Source of the DNA: Gammaproteobacteria bacterium
Lineage (GTDB): Bacteria; Pseudomonadota; Gammaproteobacteria; Thiohalomonadales; Thiohalomonadaceae
DNA length: 64,000 nt
Direction: 5' to 3'
Assembly (NCBI GenBank): GCA_003252455.1
Contig: QKED01000046.1
Span: 1 to 64,000 of the forward strand
Under the pieces are notes generated by a model. It was not told where the DNA came from. It saw only the letters and a list, made by a program, of their open reading frames with translations, and searched no databases. How positions within the stretch are numbered: position 1 is the stretch's first letter; each line of letters starts with the position of its first letter. This document shows positions 30,055-42,214 of this stretch, in pieces. A program made the translations under genes and the position numbers.

Positions 30055-32232
30055 ATGGATGCCCCCTCCCCGCGCCTGCTCTGGGTCGTGCTCGCCCTGC
30101 TGCTGTTCGCCTCTGCGCCGTGCGCCGAGGAGCGGCTCATCGTGCGCCTGCGCGACAGTCAGGGGCAGGCGACCCTCGACCCCGACCTGACCCTCTACCT
30201 GGCGCAACGGGGCAGCCGTGGCGTGGCCATCTACCGGATCCGTGACGGGCTCAGTGCCGAGGCGTCGGCGGCGCTCTATCGGCGCCTGGCGCTCAACCCC
30301 GCGGTGCACTGGATGGAGTCGGATCAGCGCATCGTCGGTCCGCAGGCCGCCACCGCCACTCCCCCCGGCTACCCCACCCCTTGGCAGGGCACTCTGCGCC
30401 TCGATCAGGCTTGGGGCTACAGCGGCGATTGCCGTGGTGTGATCGTCGCCATCGTCGACTCCGGGGTGGACAGCGACCACCCCCAACTGGCCAGACAACT
30501 CTGGCAAAACCGCGACGAACTGGCCGGTAACGGCATCGACGACGACGGCAACGGCTACGTGGACGATGTGCATGGTTACAATGCCATCGACCTGAGCGGT
30601 AGCCCGGAGGACGACTACGGCCACGGTACGCGCATCGCCGGGCTCATCGGCGGCAGCCTGGGGGGCGAGGGGGTGGGCGTCTGCCACCAGGCCTATCTGC
30701 TCCCGCTGAAGTTTCTCGATGGCGGCGGCAGTGGCTACCTTACCGACGCCGAGGTGGCCTATACCTACCTGCTCGACCTGCAGCAGCGCCACCCCGAGTA
30801 CCACTATGTGGTCAACAACTCCTGGGCCAGCAGCAGTCGGCTGTCACTGCAGCTGCTCATGCAGGAGGCGGAGGCGGTGGGGATGCTGCAGGTCCACGCC
30901 GCCGGGAATCAGGCGCAGGATACCGACACTCAACCGGTCTTTCCCGCCAACCTCGCCCGCGACAGCCTCAGTCACGTGGCGGTGGCGGCCGTGGCCGGTG
31001 ACGCCGAGGCGGGTTGGACGCTGGAGGGGCAGAGTAACTGGGGGGCCGCCGGGGTGACACTCGCCGCCCCCGGCAGTCACATCGTCACCAGCCAGCTCGG
31101 TGGTGGCTACGCCACCGACACCGGCACCTCCATCGCCACCGCCATCGTCTCCGGCCTCGCCGCCCTGCTCTGGAGTCATAACCCACAGCTCAGCGCCGCC
31201 GAGGTGCGTGCCCTGTTGGAGACCTACATCCAACCTCAAGCGGCCCTGGTGGGCAGGGTGCGTGCCCCCGGCTTCAGCGATGCCGAGGCACTGCTGCGCA
31301 ACAGCGCCGCGGTGCCGCCCCTGCTCGAAACCCTGGCGCTCGACGCCGATCCCGTCACCCTCCGTGGCCTGCATCTGTCCGGCCTCGACTGGCTCTTCCT
31401 GGACGGTACGCAGCCGCTGGCGGTGCACGCCGTCAACGACCAAGAGGTACAGATCGCCGACGCGCGACAGCTCCGATGTGGCTATCTCAACGTCGCCACC
31501 CCGACGAGCACCGGCCCTGGACTCTACCTCGATCTGGTCCCTCAGCCCCCCCAGGGGCTCGTGCTGACCCCCGTCAATCCCGGCTGGCGCCTCACCTGGG
31601 AGCCGCAGATGGGGGGCTCGGGTGTGGTGGTGGAGCGTCTGGGGGGGGATGGTGCCTATCGTGAACAGGCGCGCAGTGAGGGGGAGGGGCCCTTGACCCT
31701 GACGGGATTGACGGGGGGGGAGCGTCTGCGTGTCAGCACCTTGGTGCGCTGCCTCGGCCGTGATGGTGTGAGCGCCATTGAGCGCACCTCCGCCCCCGTG
31801 CTGCTGGAGGTGCCGGATCAGGGCGTGGCCGAGGTGAGTGCCTGCAGCAACCACTGCGATGCGCGCTGCTTTATCGCCACCGCCGCCTACGGCTCACCCA
31901 TGGCCCCGCATGTGCGTCTGCTGCGGGAGTTTCGCGATCGCCTGCTGCTGAGCCACCCCCCCGGGCGTTGGCTGGTGGCGCAGTACTACGCGCTCTCGCC
32001 CCCCTATGCGCGCCAGATCGCCGCCGACCCGGGTCTGCGTCGCCTCACCCGCCTGGCCCTCTGGCCACTGGTCGCCAGCGTCTGGTTGCTCATCGGTGTG
32101 GGCCCTTGGCCACCGCTGCTCTTGGCCAGCGCCCTCGGCCTGCTGCTCTACCGCTTGCGATGTGCCAGGGTCGTTGGTGAGAGTGTGCCGCTTGCGCGCC
32201 TGGGCGCCGGTGACGCTTCGGCGGACGCTTAG
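30055..32232 (+). CDS. Subtilisin-like (S8) serine protease with CFI-box C-terminal region
   Basis: The 725-residue protein has a signal peptide (about 1-24) and an S8 catalytic domain. The triad is Asp135 (VDSGVDSDH), His190 (GHGTRIAG) and Ser359 (GTSIATA, in place of GTSMATP), with the oxyanion Asn285 (HAAGNQ). A middle region of about 400-590 includes fibronectin-like strands. At 605 the [10 protein letters not shown] box begins, followed by [10 protein letters not shown] and a YY..SP pattern, and two hydrophobic segments (about 660-705). This CFI-box C-terminus is found on secreted proteins and may help anchoring or sorting. It is likely exported. The ribosome site is weak. Confidence 0.9.
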
Positions 32233-33117: not shown

Positions 33118-33384
33118 TCAGTCGTCGTCGAGCTTGCGCTTGGCCGAGTTGTCTTCGGCGTCGATGGGTACGTAGATCTCGACGCGGTCACCCTCGGTGA
33201 CGCCGTCGGTGAGCTTCTTGATCACGCCGAAGATGCCCACCTTTTGCGTCTCCAGGTCGATGTTGGGGAAGCGCTTGAGGATGCCGGAGTGTTCGATCAC
33301 CTGCTGTACGGTGCTCCCGTCCGGGACCTCCAGCTTGAGCCAGACCTGCTCTTCGAGGTCGGCATAGGCGACACCTACGTTCAT
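33118..33384 (-). CDS. rnfH: RnfH family protein
   Basis: The 88-residue protein belongs to the RnfH/UPF0125 family of ubiquitin-like fold proteins (VGVAYADLEEQVWLKLEVP, IFGVIKKLTDGVTEGDRVEIYVPI as patterns). Relatives are encoded beside rnf in Azotobacter and Rhodobacter and beside ratA elsewhere. The exact role is unclear. It is the last gene of the operon, 2 bases after rnfE, which supports a link to Rnf rather than to the ratA-type locus. Confidence 0.9.
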   Translation of the reverse strand: MNVGVAYADLEEQVWLKLEVPDGSTVQQVIEHSGILKRFPNIDLETQKVGIFGVIKKLTDGVTEGDRVEIYVPIDAEDNSAKRKLDDD

Positions 33385-33386
33385 GT

Positions 33387-34121
33387 TCAGGCCCCCTTGG
33401 TTTGTTGGGCCGCCGCGGCACGGCGTGCGGCGAGGCTACGGTCGATCATGCGTTTGCCTACCAGGAGGAAGCCGAGGGCGATGAAGCCGCCGGGGGGCAG
33501 GATCATCAGCAGGAAGCCAGCGTAGTCCGGGATCAGCGTCAGCTCCATGAAGTGGAAGGCGTCGCCCATCAGCAGCGAGGCGTTGGCGAACAGGGTGCCG
33601 CTGCCGATGATCTCGCGCACGCTGCCGAGGATCACCAGGGCCATGGTGAAGCCGAGCCCCATCATCAGTCCGTCGAGGGCAGAGGGGAGCACATTGTTGC
33701 GCGAGGCGAACGACTCCATGCGCCCGAGGATGGCGCAGTTGGTGACGATGAGCGGGATGAACAGGCCGAGCACTTTGTGCAACTCGTGGACCCAGGCATT
33801 CATCGCCATGTCGACCAGGGTGACGATGGCGGCGATGAGCAGGACGAAGACCGGGATGCGCACCTCGGCGGTGATGATGCCGCGCAGCATGGAGATCACC
33901 AGCGCGGAGGCGACCAGCACGAAGGTGGTGGCGAGCCCCATGCCGAGGCCGTTGGTGGCGCCGCTGGTGACCGCGAGCAGCGGGCAGAGGGCGAGCATCT
34001 GGGCGAAGACGACGTTGTTGTCCCAGATGCCGTCACGGATGATGCGCATCCAGTCGGTCTTGGGGGCAGACGGGGCCTGCTCGACGACCTCGGTCTGCGG
34101 ATCGGCAGTGGCTTCACTCAT
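33387..34121 (-). CDS. rnfE: Rnf electron transport complex subunit RnfE
   Basis: RnfE is a six-helix inner-membrane subunit of the Rnf complex, which couples electron transfer between ferredoxin and NAD to ion movement. The 244-residue protein has the family stretches NNVVFAQMLALCPLLAVTSG, LIVTNCAILGRMESFASRN, and LGSVREIIGSGTLF. The conserved Cys in ALCPLL and in VTNCAIL are kept; with RnfA they bind an iron-sulfur centre in the membrane. The first 25 residues are a polar extension. It overlaps rnfG by 8 bases. Confidence 0.95.
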   Translation of the reverse strand: MSEATADPQTEVVEQAPSAPKTDWMRIIRDGIWDNNVVFAQMLALCPLLAVTSGATNGLGMGLATTFVLVASALVISMLRGIITAEVRIPVFVLLIAAIVTLVDMAMNAWVHELHKVLGLFIPLIVTNCAILGRMESFASRNNVLPSALDGLMMGLGFTMALVILGSVREIIGSGTLFANASLLMGDAFHFMELTLIPDYAGFLLMILPPGGFIALGFLLVGKRMIDRSLAARRAAAAQQTKGA

Positions 34122-34800
34122 GGCGCGGCTCCGGCTTGGATTGTGACGGGGAGTCGCCCTCGGCCTGGGCCGTGGGCTCGCTGTGTAACAGGGTCTGCTG
34201 GTTGGCTTGGAACAGTTTCAGCCCCTTGGTCACCGCCAACACCACGGCCCGCGGGGTGATGGTGGCGCCACTGAACTGGTCGAAGATGCCGCCGTCCTTC
34301 TTCACCTTCCACTTCTCCTCCGGTGGGTTGCCTAGGGAGCGCCCGTCGAAGTCGAGGATCCAGTGGGTACGCGCGACCTCGATCTTGTCGCCGAGGCCGG
34401 GGGTCTCGGCATGGGAGAGGACGCGCACGCCGAGTACGGTACCGTCGGCCTTGAGGCCCATCAGACAGACCACCGGACCGGCGTAGCCGACGGCGCTGGT
34501 CTCGAAGGCGACGGCGATCACCGTGCCCTCTTTGCGTGCACGGTAGACGGTGGTCTTCTCGCCGTTGTTGTCGATGACGATGGCGTCGGCGAGCAGGTCG
34601 TTGTCGTGCGTGGCCGGGTCGATCACCTGGCTCAGGTTGGCGGTGAGGTCTTCGGCCTTGCGCGCGGCGATGGCGTCGCGCGTCTCGACCTCGCCCACCA
34701 CCAGCAGCGAGCTGGCGAGCAGGGCGATCATGCCGAGCAGCATGGTGTGATAGGCGGGCCGCTGGCGGTAACTGGGTTCGACGCTACCTTTGTGGCTCAT
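34114..34800 (-). CDS. rnfG: Rnf electron transport complex subunit RnfG
   Basis: RnfG is a periplasm-facing flavoprotein of the Rnf complex with one N-terminal membrane helix (about 20-38). The 228-residue protein carries the flavinylation motif SGATIT at 177-182, in which Thr is covalently bound to FMN by ApbE, here at the consensus position. The long Gln/Ser/Glu-rich C-terminal tail (after about 200) is variable. It overlaps rnfD by ATGA and rnfE by 8 bases. No apbE is in the window. Confidence 0.95.
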   Translation of the reverse strand: MSHKGSVEPSYRQRPAYHTMLLGMIALLASSLLVVGEVETRDAIAARKAEDLTANLSQVIDPATHDNDLLADAIVIDNNGEKTTVYRARKEGTVIAVAFETSAVGYAGPVVCLMGLKADGTVLGVRVLSHAETPGLGDKIEVARTHWILDFDGRSLGNPPEEKWKVKKDGGIFDQFSGATITPRAVVLAVTKGLKLFQANQQTLLHSEPTAQAEGDSPSQSKPEPRHE

Positions 34801-35891
34801 GACCGCCCCTCCTTCTCACTGTCGTAGTTCAAGGGTTTGCCCTGGCGGTCACGCCCGTAGATGCGTGGCCGTGTGTAGTGGTCGATCACCGGGGTGGCGG
34901 CATTCATCAGTAGCACGGCGAAGGCGACCCCCTCGGGGAAGCCGCCCCAGGTGCGGATGATGAACACCAGCAGACCGCAGCCGGCACCGAAGACGATCTG
35001 CCCGAGGCGACTGCTCGGCGAGGTGACCATGTCGGTGGCGATGAAGAAGGCGCCGAGCATCAGCGCGCCGGTGGTGAGGTGGAACAGCGGGCCGGCGTAG
35101 CGCTCGGCGTCGACCAGGTGCAGGAGGGTGGCGGGGAGGGCCACGGCGAGCAGCATGCTCACGGGGATCTCCCAGGTGATGACCTTCTTGTAGAGCAGCC
35201 AGAGACCACCGAGCAGCACCAACAGGGCGGAGGTCTCGCCGAGGGAGCCGCGCAGGGAGCCGAACAGGCCGTCGATGAAGCTGTAGACCTCGGGGGCGGA
35301 GCTGCTCACGCCGATACCCTGGGTGAGGGCGGTCTTGATGTGGCCGAGCGGCGAGGCACCGGTGACGCCGTCGATGGCGGCGCCGCCGAAGGTGATCGCG
35401 AGCGATTCGGCCAGCGAGGGGGCCGCCGCACTGTGCAGTGGGGCGATGTCGGGCCAGGTGGTGAGCTGCAGCGGGAAGGCGATGAGTAGCATCACACGCC
35501 CGAGCATGGCCGGGTTGAACAGGTTGTTACCCAGCCCGCCGAAGATGTGCTTGCCCACCAGGATGGCGAACAGGCCCCCCACCACGCCGACCCACCAGGG
35601 GGCCCAGGGCGGCAGGGTCATGGCCAGCAGGATGCCGGTGAGCAGGGCAGAGCCGTCACCCAGGGTGGGGCCTACCGGGCGTCCCACCAGGCGCAGGGCA
35701 AAGGCCTCGCCGACGAGGGTCGCGGCCAGGGTGATGAGGACCAGCCACAGGGTGGGCCAACCGAACATATAGATGCCGAAGAGCAGGGCGGGGACCAGGG
35801 CCAGGATCACCGTCCACATGATCTCGCCTACGCCACCGGGGGCGTGGGCGTGGGGGGCGGTCACCGGCGCTGGGGCGGCGGGGGATTTCAT
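34797..35891 (-). CDS. rnfD: Rnf electron transport complex subunit RnfD
   Basis: RnfD is a polytopic inner-membrane flavoprotein homologous to NqrB. The 364-residue protein has about nine helices and family patterns GKHIFGGLGNNLFNPAMLGR, FFIATDMVTSP, and GFPEGVAFAVLLMNAATP. The FMN-attachment motif reads DGVTGASPL, with Ser180 where the usual residue is Thr. Serine is chemically able to accept the flavin phosphate, but this change is worth noting. It overlaps rnfC and rnfG by 4 bases each (ATGA). Confidence 0.95.
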   Translation of the reverse strand: MKSPAAPAPVTAPHAHAPGGVGEIMWTVILALVPALLFGIYMFGWPTLWLVLITLAATLVGEAFALRLVGRPVGPTLGDGSALLTGILLAMTLPPWAPWWVGVVGGLFAILVGKHIFGGLGNNLFNPAMLGRVMLLIAFPLQLTTWPDIAPLHSAAAPSLAESLAITFGGAAIDGVTGASPLGHIKTALTQGIGVSSSAPEVYSFIDGLFGSLRGSLGETSALLVLLGGLWLLYKKVITWEIPVSMLLAVALPATLLHLVDAERYAGPLFHLTTGALMLGAFFIATDMVTSPSSRLGQIVFGAGCGLLVFIIRTWGGFPEGVAFAVLLMNAATPVIDHYTRPRIYGRDRQGKPLNYDSEKEGRS

Positions 35892-37399
35892 GCGCTGGTC
35901 TCCTTCTGCTCGGTGCTGGTTTCACTGTCACCCGCCGGGGCGGCGCTCTCCTCCTCGGCGGCCTTCTTGGCCCGTGCGGCCTTGCGCGCGGCGGCGGCGG
36001 CGGCCTTCTCGGCCTTGATGCGCTCCATGCGCTCACTGCGTGCCTCGGCCAGACGGCGTGTCTCCTTGGCCTTGTGGTCGGCCTGGGCGCGTGCGGTCAG
36101 CTCGCCTTTGGCGTGGTTGAAGAACTGTACCAACGGGATGTGTGCCGGGCAGACGTAGGAGCACGAGGCGCAGGAGAGGCAATCGCGCAGCCCCCACGCC
36201 TCGGCCCCCTTGAAGTCGCCGACGCGGATGCGTCCGGCCATCTCCAATGGCACCAGGCCCACCGGGCAGGCGCGCACGCAGCGGCTGCAGCGGATGCAAT
36301 TGGCGGTGCTCTGCTCGTTCACCTCTTGCGCGGTGAGGGCGAGGATGCCGCTGCTGCCCTTGACCACCGGGACCTGCATGTTGGGCAACACCTGCCCCAT
36401 CATCGGTCCGCCCATCAGCAGGCGGGCAGGCTCGCCCTTGATCCCGCCGCAGTAGGCGAACAGCGCCTCCACCGGGGTACCGAGGCGCACGCGCAGGTTG
36501 CGCGGCTTGACGATGGCGGAGCCGGCGACGGTGGTGATGCGTTCGATGAGTGGTTCGCCGAATCGCACCGCGCGGTGTACGGCGAAGGCGGTGCCGACGT
36601 TGTGCACCACCACGCCCAGGTCGGAACTCATGCCGCCGGCGGGGACCTCTTGACCGAGCACGGTCTCGATCATCTGCTTCTCCGAACCCATGGGATAGAG
36701 GCTCGGCACCTGCACCACCTCGACCTCGCTCACCGCCTCAGCGGCGGCGTGCATGGCGGCGAAGGCCTCGGGTTTGTTGTCTTCGATCACCACCAGGGCG
36801 CGCTGCGCCTCCAGGGCGCGCAGCATCAGGCGCACCCCCTCGACGATGGCGACGGACTCTTCGCGCATCAGGCGGTCGTCGCAGGTGAGGTAGGGCTCGC
36901 ACTCGCCACCATTGATGATCAGGGTGTGGATCGGGTTGCGATTCTTCAGCTTGAGCTTCACCGCCGACGGGAAGGTGGCGCCGCCGAGACCGACGATGCC
37001 CGCCTCGCCGACCTTCGCCGCGATGGCGTCGGGGTCGAGGTCGAAGGGCGTGTCGCAGGGGTGCAGCTCGCACCAGGTGTCGTTGCCGTCGGCCTCGATG
37101 ACTACGGTCTCGATGGGCAGACCGGAGGGGTGTGGCGCGGTATGCTTGCCGATGGCCACCACGGTGCCCGAGGTGGGGGCGTGCACGGCGGCGGAGATGG
37201 GGCCGGAGGCGCGCCCGATCAGCTCACCCTTGAGCACCTGCTGGCCGCGACGGACAATGGCCTGGGCCGGGGCACCGAGGTGCTGCTGCAGCGGGACGTA
37301 GAGGCGCGCGGGGAGTGGCGCGTTCTCGATGCCCTGTGAGGCGCTCTGCTCTTTGAAGCCGGGCGGGTGGACGCCGCCACGAAACAGGGTGAGTTTCAT
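35888..37399 (-). CDS. rnfC: Rnf electron transport complex subunit RnfC
   Basis: RnfC is the peripheral subunit that exchanges electrons with NADH. The 503-residue protein has an N-terminal biotinyl-like region, the Complex I 51-kDa-like FMN/NADH fold (GGATFPSAVKLKL, INGGECEPYLTCDD), an SLBB domain, and two 4Fe-4S motifs, CIRCSRCVRACP and CLSCASCSYVCP (about 375-425). A long Ala/Lys/Glu-rich tail (about 440-503) is typical of gammaproteobacterial RnfC. It shares one base with the rnfB stop and overlaps rnfD by ATGA. Confidence 0.96.
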   Translation of the reverse strand: MKLTLFRGGVHPPGFKEQSASQGIENAPLPARLYVPLQQHLGAPAQAIVRRGQQVLKGELIGRASGPISAAVHAPTSGTVVAIGKHTAPHPSGLPIETVVIEADGNDTWCELHPCDTPFDLDPDAIAAKVGEAGIVGLGGATFPSAVKLKLKNRNPIHTLIINGGECEPYLTCDDRLMREESVAIVEGVRLMLRALEAQRALVVIEDNKPEAFAAMHAAAEAVSEVEVVQVPSLYPMGSEKQMIETVLGQEVPAGGMSSDLGVVVHNVGTAFAVHRAVRFGEPLIERITTVAGSAIVKPRNLRVRLGTPVEALFAYCGGIKGEPARLLMGGPMMGQVLPNMQVPVVKGSSGILALTAQEVNEQSTANCIRCSRCVRACPVGLVPLEMAGRIRVGDFKGAEAWGLRDCLSCASCSYVCPAHIPLVQFFNHAKGELTARAQADHKAKETRRLAEARSERMERIKAEKAAAAAARKAARAKKAAEEESAAPAGDSETSTEQKETSA

Positions 37400-37941
37400 C
37401 AGACCACCTCCACCAGATTCATTTGCGGTTTGGGCCAGTACCAGCTCTTCAGGGTCGCCTCAATGGGGCGCAGCACCACGCTCTCGGAGGGGCAGGACTC
37501 CACGCACTTGCCACAGCCGGTGCAGGCGTCCTTGATCACCAGGTGGAGCTGTTTGGGGGCGCCGATGATGGCGTCGGTGGGGCAGACCTTGAAGCAGCGG
37601 GTGCAGCCGGTGCAGAGTTCGGGCAGGACCACGGCGAGCTTGGGACCGGCGTCCTCCATATCCCCCAGGTCGGCGGTGACGCCGAGCTTGGCGGCCAGCG
37701 CCTCGGCCAGGGCCTTGCCACCGGGGGGGCAGAGGGTTACCGGGGCCGCGCCGGAGGCGATCGCCTCGGCGGCGGGGGAGCAGCCGGGGAAGCCGCACTG
37801 ACCGCACTGGGAGCCGGGGAGCATGGCATCGATCTCCTCGACCAGCGGGTTCCCCTCCACCTTGAACCAGCGGGCGGCTTGGGCTAGGCCATAGCCGAGG
37901 ATGAGACCCATCAGGGTGAGACTGACGATGGCAGCGTACAT
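37399..37941 (-). CDS. rnfB: Rnf electron transport complex subunit RnfB
   Basis: RnfB is the ferredoxin-like subunit that hands electrons between the membrane part and soluble ferredoxin. The 180-residue protein has an N-terminal membrane helix (about 5-22), the 4Fe-4S Fes domain (CGQCGFPGC, with a further Cys in LCPPGG), and two ferredoxin motifs (CTGCTRCFKVCP and CTGCGKCVESCP). The ATG giving MYAAIVSLTLMG was chosen; a 32-codon upstream extension is low-quality. Separated from rnfA by 99 bases holding a hairpin. Confidence 0.95.
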   Translation of the reverse strand: MYAAIVSLTLMGLILGYGLAQAARWFKVEGNPLVEEIDAMLPGSQCGQCGFPGCSPAAEAIASGAAPVTLCPPGGKALAEALAAKLGVTADLGDMEDAGPKLAVVLPELCTGCTRCFKVCPTDAIIGAPKQLHLVIKDACTGCGKCVESCPSESVVLRPIEATLKSWYWPKPQMNLVEVV

Positions 37942-37998
37942 GGTGGTTGACCTCCGTCGAGGGCGGGGTGTGACCCGCCGGAAAATGCGAGTGGGTGT

Positions 37999-38014
37999 GC
38001 ACCCCGAGGGGTGC
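37999..38014. repeat. Stem-loop between rnfA and rnfB
   Basis: GCACCCC and GGGGTGC make a 7-base-pair hairpin with a 2-base loop in the only real gap (99 bases) inside the rnf operon. A second, weaker inverted repeat (GGCCCG / CGGGCC) lies next to it. They could affect mRNA stability or the rnfA:rnfB ratio. Confidence 0.4.
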
Positions 38015-38040
38015 GCCGGGCGGCCCGGACGGGCCACCCT

Positions 38041-38622
38041 TTATTTGGTCGGCAGACCGGCGAAGCCCATGAAGGCGAGAGAGAGCAGGCCGGCGACGAT
38101 AAAGGCGATGGGGGTACCGGCGAAGAGTGCCGGGACGCGCGCCAGGGCCATGCGCTCACGCAGGCCGGCGAAGATCACCATCACCAGGGTGAAGCCGAGG
38201 GCCGAGCCGATGCCGTAGACGGCGCTTTCGAGGAAGCCGTGCTCCTTTTGCACATTGAGCAGGGCCACACCGAGCACCGCGCAGTTGGTGGTGATGAGCG
38301 GCAGGAAGATGCCGAGTACCTGGTAGAGCACCGGGCTGCTCTTTTTGATCGCCATCTCGGTGAACTGCACCACGGCGGCGATGATCAGGATGAAGGAGAG
38401 GATGCGCAGGAAGCCGATGCCGAGCGGGGCCAACACGAAGTGCTCGATGAGCCAACTGCTGATGGCCGCCAGGGCCAGGACGAAGGTGGTGGCCAGACCC
38501 ATCCCCAGGGCGGTGTCCATCTTGTTGGAGACCCCCATGAAGGGACAGAGGCCGAGGAAGTTCACCAGCACCACATTGTTGACCAGCGCGGTGCCGATCA
38601 GGAGGAGGATATATTCGGTCAT
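38041..38622 (-). CDS. rnfA: Rnf electron transport complex subunit RnfA
   Basis: RnfA is a six-helix inner-membrane protein homologous to RnfE and NqrE. The 193-residue protein has [20 protein letters not shown] and [17 protein letters not shown] as patterns, keeping the two Cys that hold the membrane iron-sulfur centre with RnfE. It is the first gene of rnfABCDGEH and lies 36 bases after a predicted sigma-54 promoter. GAGG-type sequence precedes its ATG. Confidence 0.96.
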
Positions 38623-38657
38623 GGTGAGGCACCTCGTGATTCTGATGCGCAGAGTTC

Positions 38658-38673
38658 TGCATCAAGTGTGCCA
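38658..38673 (-). promoter_or_regulatory. Sigma-54 (-24/-12) promoter of the rnf operon
   Basis: On the minus strand the sequence TGGCACACTTGATGCA has GG and GC separated by exactly 10 bases. It fits the TGGCAC-N5-TTGC consensus except for one T in the -12 box. It lies about 36 bases upstream of the rnfA start, which leaves room for a normal leader. The two NifA-type sites lie about 75-145 bases further upstream, a usual distance for activation through DNA looping. Confidence 0.8.
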
Positions 38674-38747
38674 GTACATAAGAGTGAGCTAAGATGCCGA
38701 TTCGCCGTCGGCGATATGCCCCCATAGGCGGCAGGGATGTCGCACAT

Positions 38748-38763
38748 TGTCGAATAGTCGACA
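38748..38763. promoter_or_regulatory. NifA upstream activator site 1 (TGT-N10-ACA)
   Basis: TGT, then ten bases, then ACA matches the NifA binding-site consensus exactly. It lies about 75 bases upstream of the rnfA -24/-12 promoter and about 125 bases upstream of the nifL one, in the middle of the divergent region. Confidence 0.75.
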
Positions 38764-38781
38764 GTGCCCCCACGGGGCACT
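38763..38781. repeat. Inverted repeat AGTGCCCC-CAC-GGGGCACT between the two NifA sites
   Basis: A perfect 8-base inverted repeat with a 3-base centre begins at the last base of NifA site 1 and ends 9 bases before NifA site 2. It might be a site for another regulator or a DNA structure assisting looping. No T run follows, so it is not a terminator. Confidence 0.5.
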
Positions 38782-38789
38782 CCAATGCT

Positions 38790-38805
38790 TGTCGTTTTTG
38801 TTACA
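38790..38805. promoter_or_regulatory. NifA upstream activator site 2 (TGT-N10-ACA)
   Basis: A second exact TGT-N10-ACA with one extra symmetric base on each side (TTGT...ACAA). It is 26 bases from site 1 and about 82 bases upstream of the nifL -24 element. Spacing between the sites is 42 bases centre to centre, that is four helical turns, which would place both on the same DNA face. Confidence 0.78.
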
Positions 38806-38885
38806 ATGCGCAAACAAGGGCCGATTTCGCCAGACTGGCCGACCTCTATCCCCCGCACCAGGGGGGTGAACGAGGCCGAATATAT

Positions 38886-38901
38886 AGGCATGGCAGTTGC
38901 T
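38886..38901 (+). promoter_or_regulatory. Sigma-54 (-24/-12) promoter of nifL-nifA
   Basis: AGGCATGGCAGTTGCT has GG and GC separated by 10 bases, with the -12 core TTGC intact and the -24 core GGCA intact. It lies 64 bases upstream of the nifL start on the plus strand. With the NifA sites upstream, this implies autoactivation of nifLA. Confidence 0.72.
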
Positions 38902-38907
38902 TATATC

Positions 38908-38924
38908 ATTGTTTATTGAACAAT
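38908..38924. promoter_or_regulatory. Inverted repeat ATTGTT-N5-AACAAT downstream of the nifL promoter
   Basis: Six-base perfect arms lie at about the expected transcription start of nifL. The position would allow a repressor to block transcription, or the repeat could form a leader hairpin. No known operator consensus is matched. Confidence 0.35.
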
Positions 38925-38965
38925 TTTTCTGCTCAGAGGCCGCTGGACGCGGCTGAGGAGAGACC

Positions 38966-40605
38966 ATGTCCACAACAGTACGCCATATGAGTGAGCAAAC
39001 GTTGATCAGCGACTTCCTCGCTGCACCACCCGAGGGCACGCCCGAGGCGGTGCTCGATCTGCTGCGTGCCGGGTTGCGTGAGCAGCGCGGCGGCGGTGTG
39101 CCGATGCGCATCTTTTACGAGGCGGTCGAACAGTCCCCCATCGCCACCTCGATCACCGACACGGCGGCCAATATCCTCTATGCCAACCGCGCCTTCAGCC
39201 GCGTGACCGGCTACTCCATGCGCGATGTGATTGGCCGCAACGCCTCTATGCTGTCGGACAAGAACACCCCACCGGAGGTCTACCGCGACCTCTGGAGCAC
39301 CGTCTCCAAGCGCCAGATTTGGCGCGGACAGCTGGTCAACAGGCGTGCCCTGGGCGAGCGTTACCTGGCCGAGTTGACCATCGCCCCGGTCTTCAGCGGC
39401 GGTGAGGTGAGCCACTACCTGGCCATGCACCGCGACATCACCCAGGAGCACGAGACCCAGCAGGGGTTGAAGAATCAGAAGCGGGTGGTGGAGTCGGTGC
39501 TCGATATGACCCCCACCGCCATCGCCCTGCTCGCCCCGGATGGTCGGGTGATCCTCGACAACCACGCCTACAAGAAGCTGGTGGGGGACATGCAGGTGGC
39601 CGAGCCCGCCTTCACCTTTATCGACCAGTTGCACGCCGCGCTCGGTCCGCGCTTCGACGAGTGCAAGCAGCGTGGCGGCACCTTCCAGAATATCGAGGTG
39701 CTCATCTCCCCCAAGGGGGGGCGGCGTGAACGCTGGTTCAGCTGTTTTGGCAACTGGTTCGATATGGAAGAGACCGGGGTGGAGAACTACTTCGAGGGTC
39801 ACGAGAGCCGCTATCTGCTGCTGGCGATCAACGAGATCACCCACCACAAGCTGCAGCAGGAGGAGCTGCGCGCCGCGGCCATCCACTCCCTCACCCTGCA
39901 GCAGGAGCTGACCCAGAGCCTGCGCGAGGTGATCTCCGCCGCCATCTTCCAGTTCCAGACCCCGCTCAACCTGATCGGTGCCGCTACCGGTATCGTGCAG
40001 CGCCGTGCCACCAGTGAGGGGGGCACGGAGCAGGAGCCGATGATGCGCGTGCTCGGCCTGGCCCTGCGCGAGGGGCGCAAGGTGATCGACACCCTGCGCA
40101 GCTCGCTGCCCGAGCGCATCGACGAGGGGCGTGGGGCGGTCAATATCAACCAGGTGGTGCGCGACACCCTGGCCATCATCACGCCGCAACTGCTCAAGCA
40201 GGGGGTGGTGGTCGATTGGCTGCCCACCGCCCACCTGCCCAACCTCTGCGCCGTCGAGTCCCAGTTGCGTACGGCGGTGAAGAAGGTGCTGGAGAATGCC
40301 GTGGAGGCGCTGTCGCAAAAGCGTGACGGTGAGCGCTCGCTACGCATCAAGACCAATCAGGTCGGTGGCGTGGTGGAACTCTCTATAATGGACAATGGCC
40401 CCGGCATCCCCCTCGACCTGCGTCTGCGCGCCTTCGAGCCCTTCTTCACCACCAAGGCGGGGGGCGGCGGTCTAGGCATGGGTCTGACCATCGCCCAAGA
40501 GATTGTTAACGACCACCAGGGCACCATCGTCCTGGGCGAGGGTGAACAGGGGGGGTGTCGCGTCACCCTGAGACTGCCCCTCAAATCGACCCATGGGGAA
40601 TGCAA

Positions 40606-40609
<4 letters not shown>
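38966..40609 (+). CDS. nifL: NifL, flavin-PAS anti-activator of NifA
   Basis: NifL senses redox and nitrogen/ADP status and inhibits NifA by direct binding. The 547-residue protein has a PAS domain typical of flavin-binding NifL (about 48-145, ending [10 protein letters not shown]), a second PAS (about 160-300), and a histidine-kinase-like C-terminus. That region has N box [13 protein letters not shown]1 [10 protein letters not shown] box FEPFFTT and G2 [11 protein letters not shown]. The expected phospho-acceptor region reads FQFQTPLN at 328-335, with no His, which agrees with NifL acting without phosphotransfer. GAGGAG precedes the ATG. It overlaps nifA by ATGA. Confidence 0.93.
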
Positions 40610-42180
<1,571 letters not shown>

Positions 42181-42190
42181 CCCACCCCGC

Positions 42191-42214
42191 ACCGACAGGC
42201 CCCGGCCTGTCGGT
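42191..42214. terminator. Strong GC hairpin between convergent nifA and TSUP genes
   Basis: ACCGACAGGCC and GGCCTGTCGGT form an 11-base-pair stem with only two loop bases, 10 bases after the nifA stop and 10 before the convergent TSUP stop. No T run follows on either strand, but the position suits a bidirectional transcript end. Confidence 0.5.

Follow-up and report, generated by a model that had tools for sequence, protein, structure and literature searches.

NifA binds TGT-N10-ACA and activates sigma-54 promoters from about 80-150 bases away, and the bacteria in which its targets have been described include the betaproteobacterium Azoarcus olearius BH72. In the available part of a review, nifLA of most NifL groups is placed beside an rnf operon that runs divergently, and NifA is reported to regulate rnf1 in A. 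vinelandii, P. stutzeri and A. olearius (PMC6490700). Tandem NifA sites are predicted upstream of both rnfA1 and nifL in Azoarcus (PMC3916325), and nifLA and rnf of P. stutzeri are both listed as predicted NifA-sigma-54 operons (PMC2820453), as the accessible excerpts of these papers have it. Further excerpts state that nifLA of A. vinelandii is not autoactivated by NifA and that nifLA of P. stutzeri is nitrogen-regulated (PMC8219145), and describe nifA and rnfA of P. stutzeri as NtrC-dependent, with putative NtrC sites (PMC8443478). Publications already describe the rnf-nifLA arrangement in P. stutzeri, Azoarcus and A. vinelandii.

The locus analyzed here lies in a window of 64,000 nucleotides (the whole stretch of DNA that was analyzed), in which a 343-base gap, 38623-38965, separates the divergent rnfA and nifL genes (Table 1). 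A ubiquitin-like RnfH gene follows rnfE, which makes the operon rnfABCDGEH, as in P. stutzeri. The genome also encodes rpoN, ntrC and nifH; it contains both RpoN and NifA, the two proteins that a NifA/sigma-54 enhancer-dependent rnf promoter calls for. Within the C-terminal helix-turn-helix of NifA, a 17-residue stretch is nearly invariant in the relatives aligned there, and the same DNA site is therefore expected for NifA. nifH has its own TGT-N10-ACA, TGTCGACATTGCGACA, 113 bases (start to start) upstream of a sigma-54-like TGGCACGCTCTTCGCA. Elsewhere in the genome are a second rnfC-like gene (contig C80, 50% identity) and a third (contig C84:222-1535, L155; 39% identity), which has one in-frame TGA near the contig end. 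Directly 3' of nifA, a hairpin with 11-base arms (ACCGACAGGCC/GGCCTGTCGGT, 42191-42214) and no T run is possibly the nifLA terminator. Beyond the rnf operon lies a subtilase gene (30055-32232, Pfam Peptidase_S8) with a CFI-box C-terminal domain.

Table 1. Genes and candidate control elements of the divergent rnf-nifLA region, in window coordinates.
Feature	Position	Strand	Details
rnfH	33118..33384	-	Pfam PF03658 Ub-RnfH, 101.9 bits; last in rnf operon
rnfABCDGE	33387-38622	-	NCBIfam; order after rnfA is rnfB, C, D, G, E
rnfA	38041..38622	-	TIGR01943, 281 bits (cut-off 229); heads rnfABCDGE
Sigma-54-like promoter of rnfABCDGEH, TGGCACACTTGATGCA	38658..38673	-	-24 G at 38672; consensus score 14.2 of 15.9
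Candidate NifA upstream activator site 1, TGTCGAATAGTCGACA	38748..38763		Exact TGT-N10-ACA
Inverted repeat, AGTGCCCC-CAC-GGGGCACT	38763..38781		8-base arms; starts at last base of site 1
Candidate NifA upstream activator site 2, TGTCGTTTTTGTTACA	38790..38805		Exact TGT-N10-ACA, 42 bases from site 1
Weak NtrC-like dyad, CGCACCAGGGGGGTGAA	38854..38870		10.7 bits with relatives' matrix; centre 25 bases upstream of nifL -24 G; of doubtful function
Sigma-54-like promoter of nifLA, AGGCATGGCAGTTGCT	38886..38901	+	-24 G at 38887; consensus score 13.9 of 15.9
nifL	38966..40609	+	TIGR02938, 561.6 bits (cut-off 242)
nifA	40555..42180	+	TIGR01817, 679 bits (cut-off 529); start overlaps nifL end

The initial annotation had reported GG-N10-GC promoters on both strands of this gap, two exact TGT-N10-ACA sites, and an 8-base inverted repeat lying between those sites. 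All of these elements are present, the repeat having one base in common with site 1, and the observation of this motif set in the rnfA-nifL gap is confirmed. The rnf promoter consists of a GG-N10-GC -24/-12 element with TGT-N10-ACA sites centred 83.5 (site 1) and 125.5 bases (site 2) from its -24 G, within the range of about 80-150 bases upstream. Measured to the nifL -24 G, the centres of sites 1 and 2 are 131.5 and 89.5 bases away, respectively.

Loci of relatives were gathered by NifL protein similarity alone, from the small GTDB family, the class, and named genomes; among the named-genome contigs a single NifL query gave no loci, and an alignment query gave the best 80 of 560 relatives. 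The window and 107 loci make up the 108 entries examined, which include some genomes twice and some loci at contig ends. Named records in the set, which holds the best 80 of 560 relatives, include Ectothiorhodospira, Methylomonas, Thiodiazotropha, Thiobacillus and a zetaproteobacterium, and the highest NifL identity to the window among the relatives gathered is 49%. rnfA is divergent upstream of nifL in 91 of the 108 entries, these again covering the best 80 of 560 relatives. Two gaps longer than 900 bases were set aside, and the remaining 89 yielded 85 distinct gaps, the window's included. At least one TGT-N10-ACA was found in 84 of these 85 gaps and at least two in 64 (best 80 of 560 relatives included); the sole gap lacking a site, L036, is doubtful because the start of its rnfA is an extrapolation from residue 95. 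In all, the 85 gaps contain 159 such sites versus 9.1 in scripted controls, which were first-order Markov resamplings of each gap and not exact shuffles. Relative to the same controls, sigma-54-like sites scoring at least 13 are present on the rnf strand in 74/85 gaps (controls, 5.3) and on the nifL strand in 71/85 (4.5), and sigma-54-like sites occur on both strands in 66/85 (0.4). Because related gaps are not independent, they were also thinned by NifL identity; among the 29 gaps left at less than 65% identity, a site is present in 28, two sites in 17, and both promoters in 16.

Spacing was evaluated in 71 gaps (52 with paired sites and 19 with a single site), 14 of the 85 having been dropped because a promoter or site fell below threshold. 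The two sites are 39-42 bases apart in 43 of the 52 paired gaps and 18, 20, 33, 34 or 63 bases apart in the others; at 42 bases, the window has the paired spacing that marks the conserved divergent rnf-nifLA region. In five gaps (L082, L084, L089, L099 and L105), whose records are Methylococcales, Methylococcaceae or uncultured proteobacteria, the NifA-type sites are only 18 bases apart and almost touch, in place of the common 39-42. Of the 43 pairs with a spacing of 39-42 bases, 41 have their near site at 64-65, 75-77, 84-88 or 94-97 bases, measured from the -24 G of rnf; the distances thus form rungs at about 64, 75, 86 and 96 bases, separated by roughly one turn of the helix, with none between. 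In the remaining two pairs the near site is far out, at 185 and 222 bases. Circular statistics on the rnf distances of all pairs gave R = 0.78 at a 10.5-base period, a value that 0 of 2000 jittered sets equalled (n = 52). R was 0.65 (0/2000, n = 27) after thinning to less than 80% NifL identity and 0.45 (109/2000, n = 14) after thinning to less than 70%. The signal from single-site gaps is weak (85/2000, n = 19; 1027/2000 after 80% thinning, n = 12). The rnf spacing ladder is strong over the whole sample, and among the most distant lineages it is suggestive. The window's rnf phase of 10.0 modulo 10.5 falls on a rung and differs by 2 bases from the paired-gap mean phase of 1.5.

The distances to the nifL promoter behave differently: the interquartile range over the 52 paired gaps is 63-111 bases versus 75-87 for rnf, and the nearest-site distance shows no 10.5-base period in pairs (322/2000). 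A period scan of the nifL distances peaked at 11.2, above its control. With its spacing locked to rnf and loose to nifL, the site pair is read as built around rnf. The gap is likely to be an enhancer region that two divergent sigma-54 operons share and in which the pair has this orientation toward rnf.

The conservation of a site in 84 of 85 gaps, the helical-turn spacing, and the published NifA-dependence of rnf in three relatives together argue for NifA/sigma-54 control of rnf. We regard rnf as very probably under NifA control, and the case that NifA would drive it from this site pair is strong. The route would be as follows. When fixed nitrogen and oxygen are low, NifL would release NifA, which would bind both TGT-N10-ACA sites, four helical turns apart on the same face of the DNA. 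Looping would then bring bound NifA to sigma-54 polymerase on the rnf promoter, turning on rnfABCDGEH, the Rnf complex serving as a low-potential electron supply for nitrogenase. The nifL promoter, too, could in principle be within reach of this bound NifA, which would create positive feedback. We infer binding, looping, the direction and strength of activation, and feedback on nifLA from the genes, motifs, conservation and spacing. The initial annotation had proposed that NifA switches on Rnf and itself together; conserved sites, phased spacing and published relatives strongly support its first half, and its second half, self-activation, is possible.

NifA action on nifLA is possible because the nifL promoter is good and lies 89.5 and 131.5 bases from the two sites, and we put the chances of autoactivation at about even. 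In the full form of this idea, that of the initial annotation, NifA bound at the shared pair would activate the two operons to an equal degree, as a positive-feedback switch. Those site distances agree with such a switch, as do the published predictions for both operons in P. stutzeri and in Azoarcus, in the excerpts cited above. The much looser nifL spacing weighs against it, as do the window's phase at nifL (5.5 modulo 10.5, which is between rungs and off the phase seen at rnf) and the report, in partial text, that nifLA of A. vinelandii lacks autoactivation by NifA. Equal activation of the two operons is somewhat short of an even bet.

Slightly behind it is the proposal that the NifA sites serve rnf only and that nifLA is driven by another enhancer-binding protein, most likely NtrC, whose site we take to be GCACC-N5-GGTGC. 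The Klebsiella NtrC-to-NifA cascade is a precedent, and the same is suggested for P. stutzeri in the text available, where nifA and rnfA are described as NtrC-dependent with putative sites; the absence of autoactivation reported for A. vinelandii nifLA fits as well, and ntrC is encoded in the window's genome. Exact GCAC-N7-GTGC occurs in 22 of the 85 gaps versus 0.94 in controls, and every listed gap with placeable promoters has one exact copy whose distance from the -24 G of rnf is 59-61 or 69-72 bases. A score of at least 6 bits in this slot was obtained in 29/71 gaps (about 40%) versus 2% in controls, a count that leans on the training sites because these very sites had gone into the matrix. 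In the window itself, no NtrC-like site occupies the slot conserved in relatives, where the best score is -0.7 bits. Its sole NtrC-like dyad is off the conserved position, lying 25 bases from the nifL -24 G as compared with 106-205 for the listed exact sites; its score is reached in 1.7% of shuffled gaps and is below those of all training sites (13.0-23.0). A genome-wide scan for NtrC-like sites with 2 mismatches was uninformative because matches were too many (591 per strand versus 128 for the reversed pattern). The 10.5-base period that is present in the nifL distances of single-site gaps (9/2000, n = 19) counts against a pure rnf-only role of the NifA sites.

A more tentative, and on balance unlikely, history would join these observations. 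The gap may be an old enhancer module in which NifA sites, and often an NtrC site, are held on one helix face relative to rnf and shift only in steps of a full turn, the nifL promoter being free to float. Lineages whose slot contains no NtrC site, the window's among them, would have moved from an NtrC-to-NifA cascade to NifA itself or to unregulated basal nifLA expression.

The inverted repeat, which the initial annotation had called unexplained, is real, and its simplest account is chance; it is probably fortuitous. Chance alone would place an equal repeat in 4.75% of comparable gaps, and the figure for comparable segments between two sites is 0.86%. Of the 61 between-site segments, the window's is the sole one with such a repeat; controls averaged 0.21, with at least one in 18% of runs. 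That the repeat is the operator of a further regulator, blocking or bridging the two NifA sites, is very improbable. Its perfect 8-base arms are placed between the sites, where the segment-level chance is 0.86%, and the half-repeat TGCCCCCA recurs 48 bases upstream; against these points, the repeat was found post hoc. Neither recurrence in the genome nor conservation in relatives was found, there being one exact copy in 4.58 Mb and none in the other 60 paired gaps, the nearest relative's NifL being 49% identical. A genome-wide operator was rejected on the single exact copy and on the best near copies (one with 1 mismatch and one with 2, on contig C38), which lie inside an open frame for a GGDEF-type protein as read by eye. 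As an NtrC site the repeat scores -6.2 bits and was likewise rejected. As a separate observation, perfect inverted repeats with arms of at least 8 bases occur anywhere in the gap in 14/85 cases versus 5.7 in controls, and in L021/L045, L029, L044, L050, L090 and L093 a NifA site lies within such a longer perfect repeat.

That the motifs are themselves fortuitous and the two operons use sigma-70 promoters is hardly credible: GG-N10-GC and TGT-N10-ACA are short and each is common, but their combination and conservation in relatives exceed controls, and the scan of 38500-39100 gave no sigma-70-like promoter. TGT-N10-ACA alone is not enriched (4 in the 64-kb window versus a mean of 5.97 in shuffles), and GG-N10-GC elements scoring at least 13.9 number 6 in the 64 kb. 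The 64 kb contain two cases of a strong sigma-54-like site that has TGT-N10-ACA 40-200 bases upstream, both in this gap and with two sites each. In 300 random first-order sequences the same combination averaged 0.13, with no two-site cases and no divergent pairs. Searches for other elements gave no terminators in the rnfA-nifL gap, no Rfam match in the window, and IHF consensus sites in 3/85 gaps versus 1.8 in controls, the window's gap having none.

A single control region would tie the electron supply of nitrogenase (Rnf) to the nitrogenase regulator in a lineage distant from the strains studied. With its rungs, the spacing ladder supplies natural variants that could test whether NifA action at rnf depends on the helix face. 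Whether a species has the NtrC slot or lacks it predicts whether its nifLA would be under general nitrogen control, a point of practical use in engineering ammonia-releasing strains. Judged from titles and the beginnings of abstracts, in a search with subscription papers mostly outside it, no published report of the rung spacing or the NtrC slot was found. One upstream activator sequence shared by two divergent operons is reportedly known near fdxN of Rhodobacter capsulatus, from work of Saeki in 1993; in what is available of that account, the genes and the class differ from those of the window. The Klebsiella nifLA promoter is sigma-54-dependent like the window's, but there it is NtrC-driven and has no rnf neighbor, in the partial descriptions at hand. 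A. vinelandii has the same gene order and an rnf1 regulated by NifA; unlike the 343-base gap of the window, its cloned intergenic region is 444 bp, and its nifLA is reported not to be autoactivated (PMC8219145, PMC6490700; parts available). The window resembles A. olearius BH72 in its tandem predicted NifA sites, and rnf1 there is positively regulated by NifA, according to the accessible text (PMC3916325). It differs from P. stutzeri, with its putative NtrC sites for nifA and rnfA, in having no such site in the relatives' slot. In the available sections of PMC2820453 and PMC8443478, P. stutzeri A1501 shares with the window the divergent rnfABCDGEH/nifLA layout, both operons being listed there with a sigma-54 promoter and a NifA site, and its rnf1-nifLA region is induced under nitrogen fixation.
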